Source of the DNA: Lachnospiraceae bacterium
GTDB lineage: Bacteria > Bacillota > Clostridia > Lachnospirales > Lachnospiraceae
DNA length: 60,128 bases
Reading direction: 5' to 3'
NCBI GenBank assembly: GCA_029062895.1
Contig: JAIDPF010000026.1
Coordinates: forward strand, 1-60,128
The translations under genes and the position numbers were made by a program. Under the pieces are notes generated by a model. It worked only from the letters and a program-made list of their open reading frames with translations. It did not search any database and had not been told where the DNA came from. Position 1 is the stretch's first letter. Every line of letters starts with the position of its first letter. This document shows, one piece after another, positions 49,359 through 56,314 of this stretch.

Positions 49359-50831
49359 ATGGAATATCGTGACATCTACAAGGATATGGAGGTTCGGACG
49401 AAAGGGGAGATCTATATCGGCGTAGTTGGGCCGGTCCGGACAGGAAAATCAACATTTATCAAGCGGTTTATGGATCTTCTGGTGCTTCCCAATATGACGG
49501 GGGAACATGAAAAGAATCGTGCTGTGGATGAACTTCCACAGAGTTCCGGTGGCAGGACGATTACGACCACAGAACCGAAGTTTATTCCAAAGGAAGCGGC
49601 GGAAATTTCATTAAACGATGAGACGAGGGTAAAAATAAGGCTGATCGACTGTGTCGGTTATATGGTGGAAGGGGCTGCCGGACATATGGAGGAAGATGAA
49701 GAGCGCATGGTGAGGACACCGTGGTTTGAAGAGGAGATCCCTTTTACGGAGGCGGCGGAAGTGGGAACCGGCAAGGTAATCCGGGATCATTCCACGATTG
49801 GTGTGGTCGTGACCTGTGATGGAAGCTTTGGCGAGATTCCAAGAGAAAATTACATAGAACCGGAGGAGCGGACCGTCAGGGAATTAAAGGAGCAGGGAAA
49901 ACCCTTTATCATTTTGCTGAATACCACTAGACCTTATAGCGAAGAAGCAAAGACGCTTGCGCAGGAATTATATGAAAAGTATGGAATTTATACCATGCCG
50001 GTAAACTGCGAGCAGCTGAAAAAAGATGATATCCATAATATCATGGAACAGATTTTATATGAATTTCCGATCGCCAAGATTGAATTCTACATGCCGAAAT
50101 GGGTGGAAATACTGGATAAAAATCATCCAATGAAAGCGGATATCGTGGAGCATATTAAGACGCTTGCCGGCGATGTCAGGCTGATCAGGGATTTTAATGA
50201 AAAATCATTGCAGATGGACAGTGAGTATATCAAACGGTGTAAGGTGGATCAGGTCTCTATGGCAGACGGTAATATCGCAGTGGCAATTGATGTCCCGGAG
50301 CAGTGCTACTATGAAATGTTAAGTGAGATGTCGGGAGAAGAGATCAGCTGTGAGTATCAGTTGATCAACAAGATGAAGCAGCTGTCCGAACTTAAGAGAG
50401 AATATGAGAAGGTGAAGAATGCTATGGAGGCAGTTCGCGCTAAAGGATATGGCGTTGTAACGCCGGAACGCGGTGAGATTGTATTGGATAAACCGGAGAT
50501 CATCCGTCACGGCAATAAATATGGGGTAAAAATCAAGGCATACAGTCCCAGCCTTCACTTGATCAAAGCGAATGTAGAGACAGAGATCGCGCCGATCGTC
50601 GGGACGGAACAGCAGGCCAATGATCTGATCCAGTATATCAATGAAGCGGGTGTTGATCAGGAAGGCATATGGGAGACTAATATCTTTGGAAAGACGGTAG
50701 AGCAGCTTGTCAATGATGGTATCAACAGCAAGATCACAGCGATCGGTGAAGAAAGTCAGGTAAAGCTGCAGGATACGATGCAGAAGATCGTCAATGACAG
50801 TAATGGCGGTATGATCTGTATCATTATCTAG
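49359..50831 (+). CDS. spoIVA: Stage IV sporulation protein A
   Basis: SpoIVA is an ATPase that polymerises on the forespore surface to base the spore coat. The 490-residue product has the Walker A GPVRTGKST (about 22-30), the switch region RLIDCVGYMVEGAAGH, and the conserved C-terminus NDSNGGMICIII. Length and ends match family members. GGAG signals precede ATG 49359; the upstream ORF start at 49308 is not used. Its presence argues that the organism forms endospores. Confidence 0.97.
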   Translation: MEYRDIYKDMEVRTKGEIYIGVVGPVRTGKSTFIKRFMDLLVLPNMTGEHEKNRAVDELPQSSGGRTITTTEPKFIPKEAAEISLNDETRVKIRLIDCVGYMVEGAAGHMEEDEERMVRTPWFEEEIPFTEAAEVGTGKVIRDHSTIGVVVTCDGSFGEIPRENYIEPEERTVRELKEQGKPFIILLNTTRPYSEEAKTLAQELYEKYGIYTMPVNCEQLKKDDIHNIMEQILYEFPIAKIEFYMPKWVEILDKNHPMKADIVEHIKTLAGDVRLIRDFNEKSLQMDSEYIKRCKVDQVSMADGNIAVAIDVPEQCYYEMLSEMSGEEISCEYQLINKMKQLSELKREYEKVKNAMEAVRAKGYGVVTPERGEIVLDKPEIIRHGNKYGVKIKAYSPSLHLIKANVETEIAPIVGTEQQANDLIQYINEAGVDQEGIWETNIFGKTVEQLVNDGINSKITAIGEESQVKLQDTMQKIVNDSNGGMICIII

Positions 50832-50964
50832 GGAAGTGCATTGATCAGCGTTTTCACAAACAGGAACAATAGTTCAAAATTATGCGTACTATAGTCTATA
50901 TCAATTAATTACGATATTGGATAAAATATAACATAAAACACAAAAGAAGGGAGTAGTGCGGCAT

Positions 50965-51693
50965 ATGTCGAAAATAATAAAAAAGACTTATATTTCTGGC
51001 GCAGCCAGTGACAGAGGCACAACAAAAAAGATCAATCAGGATAAAATCTGTCTTAGAAGTACGAATACGGAAAGTGGGGAAGCGGTGTTTGCAATTGTGT
51101 GTGGCGGTATGGGCGGCATGGCAAGAGGAGACGTGGCTGCGAATACCGTCGTCAGGGAATTCACCATATGGTTTAAGAATCATGTTGGGGAAGCGCTAGA
51201 AGATCCCAAAAGAATCGAGACAGACTGGAAAGAGATCATAGATGAACTGAATGAGCGGATATGGGGATATGGAAAGCAGAAGGGGATAAAGCTTGGAACA
51301 ACAATGACCGTCCTTTTATTACTGCCGGATGGAAAGTATTACACCGCTGATGTCGGAGACAACAGGCTTTATCGTATCGTAGGAAACGAGTTTCAGCAGG
51401 AGAATAAAAAACAGACGGAAGGAAAAGGAAAGCAACCCCGGTCTATGATGGGCTGTTCTGATCTGGTGGAGCCAAACTTTACGAATGGCAGCATACATAG
51501 TGGAGAGAGTTTCCTATTATGTACGAATGGTTTTTATCATTTGTTGTTTTCAAAGAAATTGGATAAAAAACTGTTGGATGACAGCTTAGAAAAGGATGAT
51601 CAGATCCGAAAAAAACTGGAAGAGATGATCAAAGAGATCATGAATCATGGAGAAAAGGATAATATATCCGCTATTTTGATTAAAGCTTGTTAA
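50965..51693 (+). CDS. PP2C-family protein with altered metal ligands
   Basis: The 242-residue product has the PP2C scaffold: NQDKI, FAIVCGGMGGMARGDVAA, GTTMTVLLLLPDG, VGDNRLYRI, LLCTNGFYH and GEKDNISAIL. In active PP2C phosphatases the second motif reads DGMGG and the later one CSDG; here the aspartates are replaced (GGMGG, TNG), so two of the four metal-binding acids are missing while the first (NQD) and last (KDN) remain. The protein may be a pseudophosphatase or bind metal differently. It stands between spoIVA and the agr-like locus. ATG 50965 is chosen over GTG 50956. Confidence 0.8.
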   Translation: MSKIIKKTYISGAASDRGTTKKINQDKICLRSTNTESGEAVFAIVCGGMGGMARGDVAANTVVREFTIWFKNHVGEALEDPKRIETDWKEIIDELNERIWGYGKQKGIKLGTTMTVLLLLPDGKYYTADVGDNRLYRIVGNEFQQENKKQTEGKGKQPRSMMGCSDLVEPNFTNGSIHSGESFLLCTNGFYHLLFSKKLDKKLLDDSLEKDDQIRKKLEEMIKEIMNHGEKDNISAILIKAC

Positions 51694-51711
51694 AAGATAT
51701 GAAAACTGCAG

Positions 51712-51746
51712 GAAAAGCGCCTTTTATGGGCGCTTTTCTTGATTTT
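51712..51746 (+). terminator. Terminator after the PP2C-like gene
   Basis: GAAAAGCGCC (51712-51721) pairs perfectly with GGCGCTTTTC (51729-51738) around 7 bases, followed by TTGATTTT. Confidence 0.85.
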
Positions 51747-51861
51747 ACGAAACATCCAAAAAAAATAAAAAATAGACTAAAAGAACCTAAAACGTATATG
51801 GAAGAGCCAAAATTATTTTTATAAAATATTTTATAGGAATACGGGCAGAAAGGTGCATGCA

Positions 51862-52302
51862 ATGGCGAAATCTCATAATAACAAAGAAATTGCAGGCAGG
51901 CTGAAAGAACTGAGGTTGAATTTAAAATATACACAGGAGCAGTTTGCGGAATTTCTTGATATTTCTGTTCAGCTTTATAAGAAAATGGAGAGTGGCGAGA
52001 ATAATATCAGTATTGCCACTCTGCATAAGATGAAAAAGAAGCTGAGATTTTCAGTAGATTATCTTCTCTTTGGAGAAAAAGATGATCAGGAATCTATTTG
52101 GAATAGAGTGATCGCGTTGGATGATTCCGATAAGGAAAAGCTGCTGCTCAGGCTGTTTGTCATGATGACTTCGGATGATCGGCGGGTTAGTGCAAAAAGC
52201 AGGGAAGAGCATTTGTTTCAAATGTTGGATCAGGTCAGGGAAGCCGTCCCCAAGGACAATCCCCACACTAAAACTACGAAGAGAACGAAAAACAAGAGAT
52301 GA
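51862..52302 (+). CDS. XRE-family regulator, first gene of the agr-like operon
   Basis: The 146-residue product has an N-terminal helix-turn-helix of the XRE type (about 10-65, TQEQFAEFLDISVQLYKKME), then an acidic helical part and a basic tail (TKTTKRTKNKR). It overlaps the response regulator gene by 4 bases, so it is coupled to agrA and agrC. AAAGG gives the ribosome binding site for ATG 51862; GTG 51853 is a weaker choice. Binding sites are unknown. Confidence 0.85.
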   Translation: MAKSHNNKEIAGRLKELRLNLKYTQEQFAEFLDISVQLYKKMESGENNISIATLHKMKKKLRFSVDYLLFGEKDDQESIWNRVIALDDSDKEKLLLRLFVMMTSDDRRVSAKSREEHLFQMLDQVREAVPKDNPHTKTTKRTKNKR

Positions 52303-53027
52303 CAAAATGTGTATTGATCATAGAAGATAATATAAATAGCGTCAATATGATAAAAAAGATCATAGCATCGATAGACCCGTCTGTTGAGGTGCTGGTGGCG
52401 GCAAGCAGTGATGCCGCCTACAGACATGCAATGGAGAAGGATATCGATGTTTTTATTATTGATATCGTGTTAGATACCAAAGTCATGGGAGACACTTCCG
52501 GGCTGAAGTTCGCGGAATGTATCAGAGAGATGCCGAAGTATCTGTTTACTCCGTTTATTTTTACGACATCTTTGGAAGACCCGCAGATGTACGCTTTTCG
52601 GAAACTGCATTGCTATGGCTATCTTGAAAAGCCTATTGATGTGGAACAGGCAAAGGAACTGATCCGCAACGCGCTGCGTTATGAAAATAACAAAAGTATT
52701 TCCGAAACGGTTTATTTTAAGAAGGATAAAGTAATCTATCCGGTCAATGTGGATGATATTTTTTATACCAAAAATGAAAATCATGAGATGACCGTCTATC
52801 ATAGAAACGGCACCCGCTTAAGGATCCCGTATAAGACCTGCAGCCAGCTCTTAAAGGAAGTGCGTACCGGCTGTCTGTTTCAATGCAGCAGGAACACTCT
52901 GGTTAATAGGCAGTATATCGAATCCATAGATTTAGTGAACCGTTATATCACTTTGGGGGATCCGGATCATACGAAGCTCGATATTGGGATCAGTTTCGTG
53001 AAGAAGATGGAGAGGGAAATAAAATGA
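52299..53027 (+). CDS. agrA: AgrA-like response regulator (LytTR)
   Basis: The 242-residue product has a receiver domain (1-120, phospho-acceptor D55 in FIIDIVLD, switch lysine K111 in YLEKPID) and a C-terminal LytTR DNA-binding domain (about 140-240, containing FYTKNENHEMTVYHRNGTRL and CSRNTLVNRQYIESI). LytTR regulators pair with GHKL kinases of the AgrC type, encoded immediately downstream with a 4-base overlap. It likely activates the agrBD promoter. Confidence 0.9.
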   Translation: MTKCVLIIEDNINSVNMIKKIIASIDPSVEVLVAASSDAAYRHAMEKDIDVFIIDIVLDTKVMGDTSGLKFAECIREMPKYLFTPFIFTTSLEDPQMYAFRKLHCYGYLEKPIDVEQAKELIRNALRYENNKSISETVYFKKDKVIYPVNVDDIFYTKNENHEMTVYHRNGTRLRIPYKTCSQLLKEVRTGCLFQCSRNTLVNRQYIESIDLVNRYITLGDPDHTKLDIGISFVKKMEREIK

Positions 53028-54307
53028 CGATGATTATAAACATTCTGCAGTGTTTATTTGAAATTCTTTCTATTTTAATGTGTTTATCATTGCTATATGG
53101 AGAGAAGTTTTGTTTAGATAAGCTATCTGTTGGATTGATTTTATTTGATGTTACTTTCTGTATGGTACTGGCGGTATATCATCCTTTGAATGAATCCTTA
53201 ACGGTGCTTGTGTATCCTGTGATCGTAGTATATTGTGGATTGAAGTACGGATGGAAGTGGAAGCCGATTTTTGTGAATAATATTTTATATATTTTTATTG
53301 TTGGAAGCTTGCAGGTATTATACTTAAATATTTACTACTTTTTTCTAGGCACATTTTTAACTGAAAATATGATATTTGTTATAGCATGCGCTTCAATGTT
53401 TTTGATGTTTTATATGTTAAGAAAGAAAAAATGGTATGTCATATCTGATATGATCCAGAAATGGAATCCTTTTATGAATATGGGATTTATTGTTCTGTTT
53501 TCTTTTGTGGTTTTAGCCATCATATTATATAAAGTCTATAACAGGATGAGTATTGAGGGATATCTGATTATTTTTCTATACGCACTTGTGATTTGTATCA
53601 TCCTGGCGATATGGCAGGAGTTTCGTATCAAAAGGGTGGAGATGGACGCGGAGATGAAATGTTATAACACTTATATCCATGCCTATGAGGAATTGATCGA
53701 TATCGTCAGGATGCGCCAACATGAGTTTGATAATCATCTGAACTCTATCATCAGCCTGCAGTATACCACGGATGGCTATGAAGCACTGAAAAATGCGCAG
53801 ACGCTTTATATCCATGAGATACAGTCAGATAACCGTTATAATAAATTGTTAAAAGAAGGAAATCCTTTCTTTATTGGATTTTTATATGGAAAATTCCAAA
53901 GTCTTTCTAAAGAGGGTATTGATATTGATTATCAAGTAAAGGTCGGGATTCTGGAGGGATACGGTCTGCCGGTGTATAAGCTGATTGAAATCGCCAATGA
54001 TCTGATCACCAACGCCGCGGAGGCGCTGACCCAGACGGAGGAAAAGCGGCTGTCGGTCACGGCGCTGGAGGACGAGGAGAAGTTTGTGATGGAAGTTAGA
54101 AACCGTGGGGAAGTTCTGGATCCGGAATATATCTCGAAATGTTTTGAAAAAGGAACCAGTAGTAAGGGAGAAGGCAGGGGATATGGGTTGTATAATGTTA
54201 GGGATATTTGTGACAGGTATCGTCTGGAACTTGCTTTTTATAATCAGGAGCAGCAGGGTAAGAATTGGGTCTGTTTTCAGATCACAGCAAAAAAGCTTCC
54301 AGGATAA
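53024..54307 (+). CDS. agrC: AgrC-like sensor histidine kinase (GHKL)
   Basis: The 427-residue product has five or six membrane helices in residues 5-200 (sensor domain), the phosphorylated histidine H233 in RQHEFDNHLN, and a GHKL ATPase with N325/N330 in NDLITNAAEAL and the G box GEGRGYGLYNVRDI (383-394 region). This is the AgrC architecture, a receptor for a cyclic peptide. The gene ends in the loop of a terminator that also faces agrD. The membrane half is AT-rich, more so than its neighbours. Confidence 0.9.
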   Translation: MTMIINILQCLFEILSILMCLSLLYGEKFCLDKLSVGLILFDVTFCMVLAVYHPLNESLTVLVYPVIVVYCGLKYGWKWKPIFVNNILYIFIVGSLQVLYLNIYYFFLGTFLTENMIFVIACASMFLMFYMLRKKKWYVISDMIQKWNPFMNMGFIVLFSFVVLAIILYKVYNRMSIEGYLIIFLYALVICIILAIWQEFRIKRVEMDAEMKCYNTYIHAYEELIDIVRMRQHEFDNHLNSIISLQYTTDGYEALKNAQTLYIHEIQSDNRYNKLLKEGNPFFIGFLYGKFQSLSKEGIDIDYQVKVGILEGYGLPVYKLIEIANDLITNAAEALTQTEEKRLSVTALEDEEKFVMEVRNRGEVLDPEYISKCFEKGTSSKGEGRGYGLYNVRDICDRYRLELAFYNQEQQGKNWVCFQITAKKLPG

Positions 54308-54322
54308 CGTGGAAGCTTTTTT
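54289..54322. terminator. Bidirectional terminator between agrC and agrD
   Basis: AAAAAAGCTTCC (54289-54300) pairs perfectly with GGAAGCTTTTTT (54311-54322) around a 10-base loop that contains the agrC stop codon (54305-54307). Both flanks give T tracts on the proper strand, so it can end agrC and agrBD transcripts. Confidence 0.9.
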
Positions 54323-54327
54323 ACTGA

Positions 54328-54438
54328 TTAATCTTCAGGAAATGGATATTCCCCAAAAAAGATAACACTATGAAATGGGGGGATAATGATGGTATCCGCC
54401 AGCAGGATCAGCAGCGCAGTCTTGATAAAATTCTTCAT
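54328..54438 (-). CDS. agrD: AgrD-like cyclic peptide precursor
   Basis: A 36-residue peptide starts at ATG 54438, 3 bases past the agrB stop, with GGAGG upstream inside agrB. It has the three AgrD parts: an amphipathic, hydrophobic leader (MKNFIKTALLILLADTIIIP), a short core with SVIFF, and an acidic tail GEYPFPED rich in P and E. The residue that would form the ring is serine, not cysteine, so the signal would be a lactone rather than a thiolactone; ring members S-V-I-F-F fit the normal five-residue size. Order agrB-agrD and overlap with the agr locus support the call. Confidence 0.75.
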   Translation of the reverse strand: MKNFIKTALLILLADTIIIPPFHSVIFFGEYPFPED

Positions 54439-54441
54439 GGG

Positions 54442-55005
54442 TTACGCCTCCTTTCTGATAAGATTTGTCATTTTGGCAGCCATCAGCTGCAGGGTATCCA
54501 GCAGGATGATCCAGAAGCCTGCCTTGGCAAGGAGCATTTCCGGATACTGGCAAGAATATAAGATAAAACAGCCGATAACTGTCAATACACGAATCAATGC
54601 CTTTTTGGTACTTTTCGCAAGGTTGTCTTGACTTTTAAACCTCGCCCTACGTTCTTTTGTCATGACAGGGCCGATACAGTAGTTGAGGAGAGCGCATACA
54701 ACGAGGAGCGCGACGCGCCAGATCAGGGCGATCTCTATATAAGGTAAAAGATCAATGCATACGAAAAAGAGAACTGCGGAGGCTGCCAGACATCCAAGAT
54801 AAGTACGGCAGTGCGCTCCTCCGGTTGCCGTATGGATCATGGCAAACAGTAATACGCACCCAAGGTACGTGGGATATTGGTTCAGGAACAGGCATCCGAT
54901 CGCCAATAGTTTTCCTGTTTCTCCGAAAAAAACCATGAGATAATATTTTAACAGCTTTGTCTGATAGTCTGTCAGTTCATATTTTGTCTGAATTTTCTGC
55001 AGCAT
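54442..55005 (-). CDS. agrB: AgrB-like membrane protease
   Basis: AgrB cleaves AgrD and forms the cyclic autoinducer. The 187-residue product has about five hydrophobic helices. The catalytic pair is H65 and C72 in TGGAHCRTYLGC, the His-plus-seven-Cys spacing of S. aureus AgrB (H77/C84). GGAGAAA precedes ATG 55005. It is followed by agrD after 3 bases, and both lie convergent to agrA-agrC. Confidence 0.92.
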   Translation of the reverse strand: MLQKIQTKYELTDYQTKLLKYYLMVFFGETGKLLAIGCLFLNQYPTYLGCVLLFAMIHTATGGAHCRTYLGCLAASAVLFFVCIDLLPYIEIALIWRVALLVVCALLNYCIGPVMTKERRARFKSQDNLAKSTKKALIRVLTVIGCFILYSCQYPEMLLAKAGFWIILLDTLQLMAAKMTNLIRKEA

Positions 55006-55085
55006 AATGATTTCTCCGAGTCGTTAATATGATGATCTAAAAAACGGAACTATTTGATTAAAATAAGGATATGAAAAAAGATGAC

Positions 55086-55119
55086 GTAATATGGTTTTTT
55101 TGCGTGAATTATGTAATAT
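55086..55119. promoter_or_regulatory. Repeated GTAATAT sites in the agrB/XRE2 divergent region
   Basis: GTAATAT occurs at 55086-55092 and 55113-55119, 27 bp apart, in the AT-rich gap (55006-55274) between agrB and the second XRE gene. They could be sites for the LytTR regulator or the XRE proteins, but the spacing is not the usual 21 bp of LytTR tandem sites, so this is a weak call. No clear -35/-10 pair was fixed for agrB. Confidence 0.25.
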
Positions 55120-55274
55120 CAAACGCGGAAATGTAAAATCTGGTCAAAAGATAGTTCTTTATGATCAATTTTGCGGTTTGCGGTATAAATAAAAGGATTG
55201 GCGCAAAAAATAATTTTTATGGTAGATTTGCTCTTATAATCTATGGTATCAAAAGGAAAGTCGTGGTAATTAAT

Positions 55275-55580
55275 ATGGATTATAAAGAGATTGGGGAGCG
55301 GATCGCACGTTTAAGAGTGGAAAAAAGTTATTCCAGAGATGTTTTTGCAAGGCAGATCGGTGTTTCCTCAAGGTTTTTATATGATCTGGAGGCTGGGAGG
55401 AAGGGATTTTCCGTATGGGTTTTATATAATATTTCGCAGGCATTGTCTGTCAGCTGTGATTACATTGTCACGGGGCAGGAGGATTCTCATTATGAAAAAA
55501 TCGGAAGAATTATGACGGAACTCTGTGAAGAGATGAATCATTCTCAAAAAGAAGGGGCAGATATAGAGGAAGCAGGATAA
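55275..55580 (+). CDS. Second XRE-family regulator next to agrB
   Basis: The 101-residue product has an XRE helix-turn-helix (about 5-65, RDVFARQIGVSSRFLYDLEA) and a short tail (SHYEKIGRIMTELCEEMNHS). The ORF upstream of ATG 55275 has no ribosome binding site and is not part of it. It is divergent from agrB, so the shared region probably holds its own and the agrBD promoter. It and the XRE gene at 51862 flank the agr-like locus. Confidence 0.8.
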   Translation: MDYKEIGERIARLRVEKSYSRDVFARQIGVSSRFLYDLEAGRKGFSVWVLYNISQALSVSCDYIVTGQEDSHYEKIGRIMTELCEEMNHSQKEGADIEEAG

Positions 55581-55609
55581 CGAAAAGAACAAATGGCAGA
55601 TGTGAGAAT

Positions 55610-55639
55610 ACAGGTTCCCGTGGGAACTTGTATTTTTTT
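55610..55639 (+). terminator. Terminator after the second XRE gene
   Basis: ACAGGTTCCC (55610-55619) pairs with GGGAACTTGT (55622-55631), one G-T wobble, 2-base loop, followed by A and seven T's. Confidence 0.8.
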
Positions 55640-55710
55640 GCGTGACTTTTCTATTCTGACGGTTGTCTGGAAGGTAATCCATATGATAAAATATACGCGA
55701 AAGCAATGAG

Positions 55711-55833
55711 CAGTGCGCGAGCGAGTAACATCATACACCGCCGGAAGCTTGCTTGCGGTGTATGGTGTTGCGAGAGAGCATAGGGCGAAGCCCGTGAGCG
55801 AGATGGAGCAAAGCGGAATCGAGCTTAGCACTG
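55711..55833. repeat. Palindromic element upstream of cdd
   Basis: An outer stem CAGTGC (55711-55716) with GCACTG (55828-55833) encloses a long hairpin: 55725-55741 (GTAACATCATACACCGC) with 55755-55771, 17 bp with two G-T wobbles, and a small hairpin GGGC-GAA-GCCC (55783-55793). GCGAGCGAG-type direct repeats flank it. It is probably a dispersed repeat of the Clostridia type; the 63-codon ORF crossing it is not a gene. This region is most of the gene-free 55581-55903. Confidence 0.7.
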
Positions 55834-55903
55834 TGGATATGATAGAATATAAGCAAATTCATAAAAACGTTTTTTGTTTATTTAGAAAAATGGGGGTATC
55901 CTA

Positions 55904-56314
55904 ATGGAAGAAAAAGAATTGATTCGCGCTGCCATGGAGGCAAGGCAAAGGGCATATGCGCCGTATTCGGATTTTCTGGTGGGCGCGGCGCTGTTGACGG
56001 AAAGTGGAAAGGTCTATCAGGGCTGCAATATTGAAAATGCTTCCTATGGCGCGACGAACTGTGCGGAAAGAACGGCCGTTTTCCGAGCAGTCATTGAAGG
56101 CGAGATCCGTTTTAGTGCCATTGCCATTGTAGGCGGCATGAGAGATAAGGAGCTGACTTATGCGTATCCTTGTGGGATCTGTCGGCAGGTTCTTCGGGAG
56201 TTTTGCGAGCCGGAGCGGATGTGGGTGATCGTTGCCCGGTCAGAGACGGATTATAAAAAGAGGACACTCAGCGAGCTGCTTCCGGAGAGCTTCGGACCTG
56301 ACTTTGCCGGATGA
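55904..56314 (+). CDS. cdd: Cytidine deaminase
   Basis: The 136-residue product converts cytidine to uridine in pyrimidine salvage. It has NIENASYGATNCAERTAVFR with the catalytic Cys-Ala-Glu and PCGICRQVLREF, the second zinc-ligand pair. Length is normal for the tetrameric form. A GGGGG stretch lies 3-8 bases upstream (55891-55896). It is 27 bases from the MutS-like gene and probably co-transcribed. Confidence 0.95.
   Translation: MEEKELIRAAMEARQRAYAPYSDFLVGAALLTESGKVYQGCNIENASYGATNCAERTAVFRAVIEGEIRFSAIAIVGGMRDKELTYAYPCGICRQVLREFCEPERMWVIVARSETDYKKRTLSELLPESFGPDFAG

Follow-up and report, generated by a model that had tools for sequence, protein, structure and literature searches.

In agr quorum sensing, AgrB cleaves the precursor AgrD on the C-terminal side of the future ring and hands the peptide over to the nucleophile of the ring (PMC10482373). 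In a 2024 review of anaerobes the resulting autoinducing peptides (AIPs) are thiolactones by definition (PMC11641729), and the only lactone AIPs named in a 2025 primer are those of Staphylococcus pseudintermedius and Enterococcus faecalis (PMC12312760). Papers cited here by PMC number were represented by excerpts, to which the statements resting on them refer. We describe an agr locus (positions 51862 to 55580) of a Lachnospiraceae bacterium, located in a stretch of 60,128 nucleotides (assembly GCA_029062895.1, contig JAIDPF010000026.1; the window) that is part of contig 35 of the 3.07 Mb genome G000. An operon of XRE1, agrA and agrC converges on agrB and agrD, and a second regulator gene, XRE2, diverges from agrB. 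The gene content and order, their conservation and a Ser at the nucleophile position of an AgrD that contains no Cys are established by the sequence. We read the locus as a complete agr quorum-sensing system that most likely signals through a cyclic lactone of five residues, S-V-I-F-F, and hold this reading to be probable.

AgrD, AgrB and the predicted ring

The agrD gene (54328..54438, minus strand) encodes a signal precursor of 36 residues, MKNFIKTALLILLADTIIIPPFHSVIFFGEYPFPED, which ends in HSVIFF-GEYPFPED and has the predicted ring S24-V-I-F-F28. It contains no Cys, so that no thiolactone is possible from this precursor, and a single Ser. Ser24 lies six residues ahead of the tail Glu, and the tail Pro lies four residues after that Glu. 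The AgrD tail of S. aureus has a Pro placed likewise. The spacing of C28 and E34 in S. aureus AgrD equals that of Ser24 and the tail Glu (PMC10482373). As in other agr loci, a short agrD adjoins agrB and the nucleophile of S-V-I-F-F-G-E-Y-P-F-P is spaced as the Cys is in other AgrDs; the usual Cys is replaced by Ser. The case for a lactone is the stronger because the precursor lacks Cys and its sole Ser occupies the nucleophile position. No NCBIfam family, the AgrD model TIGR04223 included, matched this AgrD. TIGR04223 matched two of the 16 AgrDs of our alignment A1 (E ≤ 1), for which Pfam gave no AgrD match.

AgrB (54442..55005, minus strand) is a membrane peptidase/cyclase (PF04647, 64.9 bits against a cut-off of 23, E = 8e-18) with the catalytic residues H65 and C72. 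The gap between agrB and agrD is three bases, and AGAAAGGAGG, recognized by direct reading, lies eight bases 5' of the agrD ATG. A preliminary description of this DNA had listed the H65/C72 pair, a 36-residue AgrD with Ser in place of Cys and a ribosome-binding site for agrD in close succession to agrB; all were confirmed, and every gene that it named was recovered where it had been placed. An alignment of 37 AgrBs shows no variation at G62, G63, H65 and C72. In an 86-row set, none of the 29 Ser-type or 52 Cys-type AgrBs has lost the catalytic His or Cys, which makes loss of function unlikely. In the predicted structure, which is of high confidence (mean predicted local distance difference test score 95.1), H65 belongs to a loop, and the helix that follows has residue 69 and C72 at its start. 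No counterpart was found among solved structures, either by sequence in the PDB up to E = 10 or by PDB fold at E ≤ 0.001. A search of mobile elements returned a single partial phage match and none in plasmids; the match (28% identity, positions 599–949 of MT839371.1) lies in a 4.7 kb record from human faeces that is labelled 'bacteriophage' and carries no annotation.

Tyr69, located between H65 and C72, was selected as the best column/residue pair screened and occurs in 19 of 29 Ser-type against 4 of 52 Cys-type AgrBs (5 of 13 against 2 of 48 outside the clade described below). We do not take it as a determinant of Ser: the counts are confounded by descent, the five supported independent pairs give no power and L247 combines Phe69 with a Ser-type AgrD. 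A link between Tyr69 and Ser is a lead only.

Serine-type AgrDs in the genus and the family

Within the genus, a close AgrB was found in four of 35 genomes, namely our own, G330 (L005/L030), G305 (L031/L199) and G331 (L006/L032). All four AgrDs share frame, start, length (36 residues) and Ser; conservation of start, frame and Ser was the check that the preliminary description had proposed, and it holds in three further genomes. The rings are SVIFF, SLIFF, SLIFL and SIIFF, with variation at the second ring residue and also at the residue two before Ser. Gene order, including XRE1 and XRE2, is identical in L005 and L199. The genes are open in our own locus, in L005 and in L199; L006, whose contig ends inside agrB, has open genes up to that point.

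In the genus g264, a relative of AgrB (E ≤ 1e-12) is present in 30 of 36 genomes. AgrDs were sought in the 20 best-matching loci of these 30 genomes and in L008; 17 were read at the first pass, followed by L237 and L242, and L233 was unreadable owing to a contig end before the ring. Ser was found in all 20 readable AgrDs (19 plus L008). Across 18 aligned g264 AgrDs the Ser, Gly, Glu, Tyr and Pro are invariant, and the next ring position holds at least five different residues.

A protein search of 299 family genomes identified an AgrB relative (E ≤ 1e-5) in 21, most of which share an AgrD ending in which Ser or Cys is followed by four residues, mostly aliphatic or aromatic, then by G-E and, shortly after, by Pro. 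For a census, 250 family genomes (nearly one per genus) were searched with the Pfam AgrB model, which matched in 96 of them. The census took 140 of at least 150 places, with ten omitted as containing stop codons or being short fragments; after the fragment L029 was dropped and our own locus added apart, 146 loci were read, including the earlier ones. With a strict pattern, 83 of the 146 loci had a candidate AgrD and 63 had none. The tail pattern applied without the Cys/Ser requirement gave 88 matches in 84 loci, and position −6 was Cys or Ser in 81 of the 88 (49 Cys, 32 Ser, 7 other). Among the 32 Ser matches, L118 arose by chance next to a Cys-type AgrD, and in four a Cys adjoins the Ser; the seven others are mostly chance open reading frames or repeat matches to a peptide for which another match was counted, and in L056 the Ser is displaced by one residue.

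With ten labels assigned by hand, the first labelled set of 86 rows comprised 52 Cys, 29 Ser, four with adjacent Ser and Cys, and one Thr. A second reading, which took in AgrD frames with an upstream start codon or with a distance to agrB outside the filter, added six (Ser in L009, L014 and L062; Cys in L024, L044 and L080), and the extended set of 92 rows has 55 Cys, 32 Ser, four with both and one Thr. The tally restricted to the Pfam search, which is unbiased toward our own gene, is 26 Ser, 55 Cys, four with both and one Thr (86 assigned among 139 places). Two further variants were seen in the census. In L070 (G054 contig 31), one of the seven matches with neither Cys nor Ser at −6, a credible-looking AgrD has Thr where the nucleophile stands (T-R-F-L-F-Y-E), with a Cys four residues ahead of it; its product would be a Thr lactone or, alternatively, a larger ring closed by the Cys. 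The AgrDs of L050, L061, L098 and L125 have Ser at −6 and Cys at −5, beside relatives with Ser-Ser (L046 and L048); four-residue rings or a Ser/Cys switch at −5 are possible.

In the tree of 86 AgrBs, the window AgrB falls within a clade of 20 rows (support 100/98), four of them from its own genus, with 16 Ser-type and four Cys-type members (L015, L017, L021 and L028). Ser also occurs in several places outside the clade, and well-supported branches require the Ser label to change at least eight times. The same clade was recovered in a quick tree of 92 rows (23 rows in the clade, 18 Ser and five Cys, with L009, L014 and L024 added; Shimodaira–Hasegawa-like approximate likelihood-ratio support 95), in which at least five changes are forced. 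The ancestral state of the clade as Ser is a reading and not a result, because both trees were rooted at the midpoint and contain many long end branches, and bootstrapping of the 86-row tree had not settled. The Ser-type L020 and the Cys-type L021 have close AgrBs (support 100/96), and natural switches of this kind would allow a direct test of which features let an AgrB accept Ser.

We lean, by a modest amount, towards the wider view that lactones are an old and major form of agr signalling in the Lachnospiraceae, represented by a Ser-majority, probably Ser-ancestral AgrB clade with a GE tail and the XRE1-agrA-agrC/agrDB/XRE2 module, together with Ser-type lineages that lie apart from it. Lactone precursors would then make up about three in ten assigned AgrDs, many of them missed by the standard AgrD model. 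If this is true, lactone signals would be common in one main family of gut bacteria. The locus provides a peptide for synthesis and a reason for searching genomes with a Ser-aware AgrD model.

Operon architecture, signalling and alternatives

The operon is headed by XRE1 (51862..52302, plus strand), a Cro/C1-type helix-turn-helix (HTH) regulator of 146 residues (PF01381, 9.7e-12). It is followed on the same strand by agrA (52299..53027), a response regulator with a LytTR DNA-binding domain (PF00072, Response_reg, 2e-11; PF04397, LytTR, 1.7e-10), and agrC (53024..54307), a GHKL-type membrane sensor kinase (PF02518, HATPase_c, 3.8e-11; PF14501, 4.8e-9), both proteins being of the types expected of AgrA and AgrC. 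ATGA overlaps join XRE1 to agrA and agrA to agrC. AgrC has several N-terminal hydrophobic segments and a candidate phosphorylated His, H233, within RMRQHEFDNH. Between agrC and agrD, a hairpin on both strands (54289..54322) overlaps the agrC stop codon and is a likely bidirectional terminator, with folding energies of −21.8 (plus) and −23.4 (minus) kcal/mol (z = −7.1 and −8.9; none of 200 shuffles equal). The earlier label of a shared perfect terminator stands as regards the strength of the hairpin on either strand. It rests on the fold and on direct reading, since the hairpin is absent from the output of a consensus terminator scan. The intergenic region 55006..55274, which could be aligned in three genomes, is common to agrB (minus) and XRE2 (plus) and presumably holds both promoters. 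XRE2 (55275..55580, plus strand; PF01381, 4.3e-7), with its best start at 55275, encodes a small HTH regulator; as a gene separate from and divergent to agrB, it is an addition to the preliminary description. The staphylococcal layout of an agrBDCA operon with RNAIII is not seen here, the operons being convergent, and Rfam gave no match at the gathering threshold in 50800–56000.

The cassette is flanked by spoIVA and a PP2C-type phosphatase gene (50968..51693, plus strand; PF13672, 3.1e-8) on one side and by a cytidine deaminase gene (cda) on the other. The phosphatase gene may lie outside the signalling system; a PP2C gene with 31% identity is also found near agr in L187. Of 30 cda loci obtained from the genus, three have the cassette, and in two (L157 and L179) cda follows spoIVA directly, the matched stretches being about 80–90 bases apart, from which we conclude that a stretch of ∼5 kb, PP2C gene included, has been gained or lost between spoIVA and cda. 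In the remaining 25, neither arrangement is visible within at most 1.5 kb.

Outside the genus, agrA and agrC converge on agrBD in ten of 18 wider stretches (L184–L202 without L199), namely L184, L185, L186, L188, L189, L190, L191, L194, L195 and L196; this order is kept in other genera at an AgrB identity of about 24–33%. Its recurrence, together with the AgrD features shared within the genus, speaks against a chance arrangement. It is also present in five of six g264 stretches (L250, L251, L253, L254 and L255), the sixth, L252, being cut by a contig end. An XRE-type gene lies directly 5' of agrA in L184, L185, L188, L189, L190 and L194 and ∼450 bases upstream in L186; within g264 one was found upstream of agrA in L250, L251 and L254 and not detected in L253 and L255. 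The upstream XRE proteins of L184, L185, L188, L190 and L194 have 219–237 residues and two stretches matching an HTH model, compared with one in XRE1. XRE2 occupies the equivalent place in L005, L199, L184, L186, L195 and L196, and it diverges from agrB within about 1.5 kb in 19 of the 20 g264 loci obtained. Weaker XRE matches were found in four of 34 loci outside the clade. Most of the clade has the arrangement of XRE-agrA-agrC converging on agrBD, in some cases with XRE2. XRE genes are thus part of the module in many lineages, not in all.

AgrA sites were sought as direct repeats 19–24 bases apart in conserved upstream regions, with 200 column shuffles for comparison. Upstream of agrB, the best value (6,21; ATTTTACAT/ATATTACAT, 20 bases apart) is barely above the best of the shuffles (6,20) and is not claimed as a site, and upstream of XRE1 the best value (6,25) is within the shuffled range (best 6,27). 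A repeat noticed by eye upstream of XRE1 (AGAACCTAA/AGAGCCAAA, 21 bases apart) matched the genome 14 and 10 times at ≤3 mismatches, and the control did so 17 and 17 times; given this lack of excess, the repeat defines no regulon. Separately, positions 51780–51835 upstream of XRE1 (AGAACCTAAAACGTATATGGAA ... TTATTTTTATAAAATATTTT) are near-identical in four genomes despite variable flanks, with no repeats above shuffles.

In the pathway that we propose, AgrB would use H65 and C72 to cut AgrD after Phe28 and hold the peptide as a thioester, which the hydroxyl of Ser24, in place of a thiol, would attack to yield the S-V-I-F-F ring with an N-terminal tail. The exported peptide would be sensed by AgrC, which would phosphorylate AgrA, and AgrA would regulate agrBD and other targets. 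XRE1, presumably on the same mRNA as AgrA and AgrC, and XRE2 probably adjust the response; repression of agrBD would be one way.

Several points weigh against a lactone signal made and sensed by this locus. With only eight residues after the ring, the AgrD tail stops short of the position that corresponds to S. aureus L41, a residue that together with E34 appears to be essential there, and S. aureus AgrB could not process Ser-AgrD (PMC10482373), so that an adapted, Ser-accepting AgrB is required here. Lactone chemistry and secretion are deduced from sequence. In some relatives a Cys lies near the Ser, two residues before it in L006 and L016, one before it in L012 and L027 and inside the ring in L018, and a Cys ring is conceivable in these; outside the clade, Ser as the nucleophile is less sure in L060, L062, L086 and L094, where a Cys lies nearer the tail. 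No AgrD was assigned in 55 of the 146 loci, and the system is patchy in its own genus. Eight of the 18 wider stretches lack convergent agrAC: in L187 agrC is beside agrB on the same strand, and in L192, L193, L197, L198, L200, L201 and L202, some of them cut by contig ends, the convergent pair was not detected. XRE2 was found in only five of 17 clade loci outside the g264 set (L008, L010, L021, L022 and L031), of which one is itself from g264 and one from our own genus. Finally, the upstream regions yielded no convincing AgrA-binding repeats, and the candidate motif no excess in the genome.

Should the N-terminal cut fall directly before Ser24, the lactone made by AgrB could rearrange by an O-to-N acyl shift, and the final signal would be a head-to-tail (homodetic) cyclopeptide. 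An exotail-free pentameric Listeria thiolactone does rearrange, with a half-life of 1.3 min, and a lactone analogue of the Listeria peptide was 48% rearranged and 36% hydrolysed at 22 h (PMC11297923). However, the residue before Ser varies by lineage (H, A, T, P, V, F and others) with no sign of a fixed cut, and we consider this outcome unlikely. The product of agrBD might instead not be sensed by the adjacent AgrC, with AgrAC answering another signal, such as the Cys-type peptide of a second agr locus of the same genome that has its own kinase-like gene, or with the product being used otherwise; that AgrC and AgrA stay adjacent to agrBD, in convergent orientation, through large divergence argues against this, and we give this possibility little credence. 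Degeneration of a former Cys-type locus, with Ser as a loss-of-function change, would fit the patchy presence in the genus (4 of 35 genomes) but is extremely improbable given the open genes of the genus loci, the five invariant residues of the g264 AgrDs among varying neighbours and the AgrB relatives in 30 of 36 g264 genomes.

Comparison with described systems

The predicted S-V-I-F-F lactone was compared with published systems. In the open-licence PMC literature (titles and starts of abstracts, among the matches listed), we found no Ser-type AgrD in Lachnospiraceae and no XRE partner of agr, and the term 'XRE family' has no occurrence in the agr papers checked there. The 'cyclic lactone autoinducers' predicted for one Lachnospiraceae strain we take to be a generic cluster-class name. 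The excerpted main text of that study contains neither 'AgrD' nor 'AgrB' (PMC11352710). AgrD, serine, lactone and Lachnospiraceae occur apart from one another in excerpts of another paper, namely in a table on oral biofilms, in the introduction and in titles of references (PMC10626739). The preliminary description had pointed to an undescribed signal system; within this literature the Ser-majority clade is a new finding, although the locus proves to be one of a widespread family-level group and not a one-off.

We take the signals of clostridial agr loci to be Cys thiolactones. As in the window, agrBD and agrCA can form separate operons in these loci (PMC12312760). A second agr locus in our own genome (contig 106, L001:1285–2230), Cys-type and adjoined by a kinase-like gene, is likewise an AgrB locus (113.7 bits) with a predicted five-residue AgrD ring, C-I-G-F-L. 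It differs in its Cys nucleophile, its HQPKRP tail and an AgrB of another clade, and its AgrD passes TIGR04223 (21.6 bits against a cut-off of 19). The genome would accordingly make one thiolactone and one lactone signal.

The lactone of S. intermedius/pseudintermedius, with a ring of five residues, is a nearer comparison than that of Fsr. In the agr system of these staphylococci, which has the same AgrB, AgrD, AgrC and AgrA parts, the ring is closed by Ser as a lactone and not by Cys as a thiolactone (PMC12312760, PMC3673130). There, Ser is treated as an exception among Cys-type staphylococci, whereas here it is the majority state of a clade; and the staphylococcal order agrBDCA contrasts with convergent XRE-agrA-agrC and agrB-agrD operons with their XRE genes.

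The Fsr system of E. faecalis, to which the preliminary description had likened the signal, also has a Ser lactone, an AgrB-like FsrB and FsrA and FsrC homologous to AgrA and AgrC (PMC12312760, PMC3673130). The lactone part of that likeness has gained in strength; the ring part does not carry over. The Fsr peptide, gelatinase biosynthesis-activating pheromone, has 11 residues and a nine-residue ring, and fsrD lies inside fsrB (PMC12312760, PMC3673130), whereas here the predicted ring has five residues, agrD is a separate gene after agrB and Ser stands only five residues before the tail. The Ser-majority agr clade with XRE partners is new relative to the literature searched, and we regard it as a variant within agr rather than as a system of a new kind.

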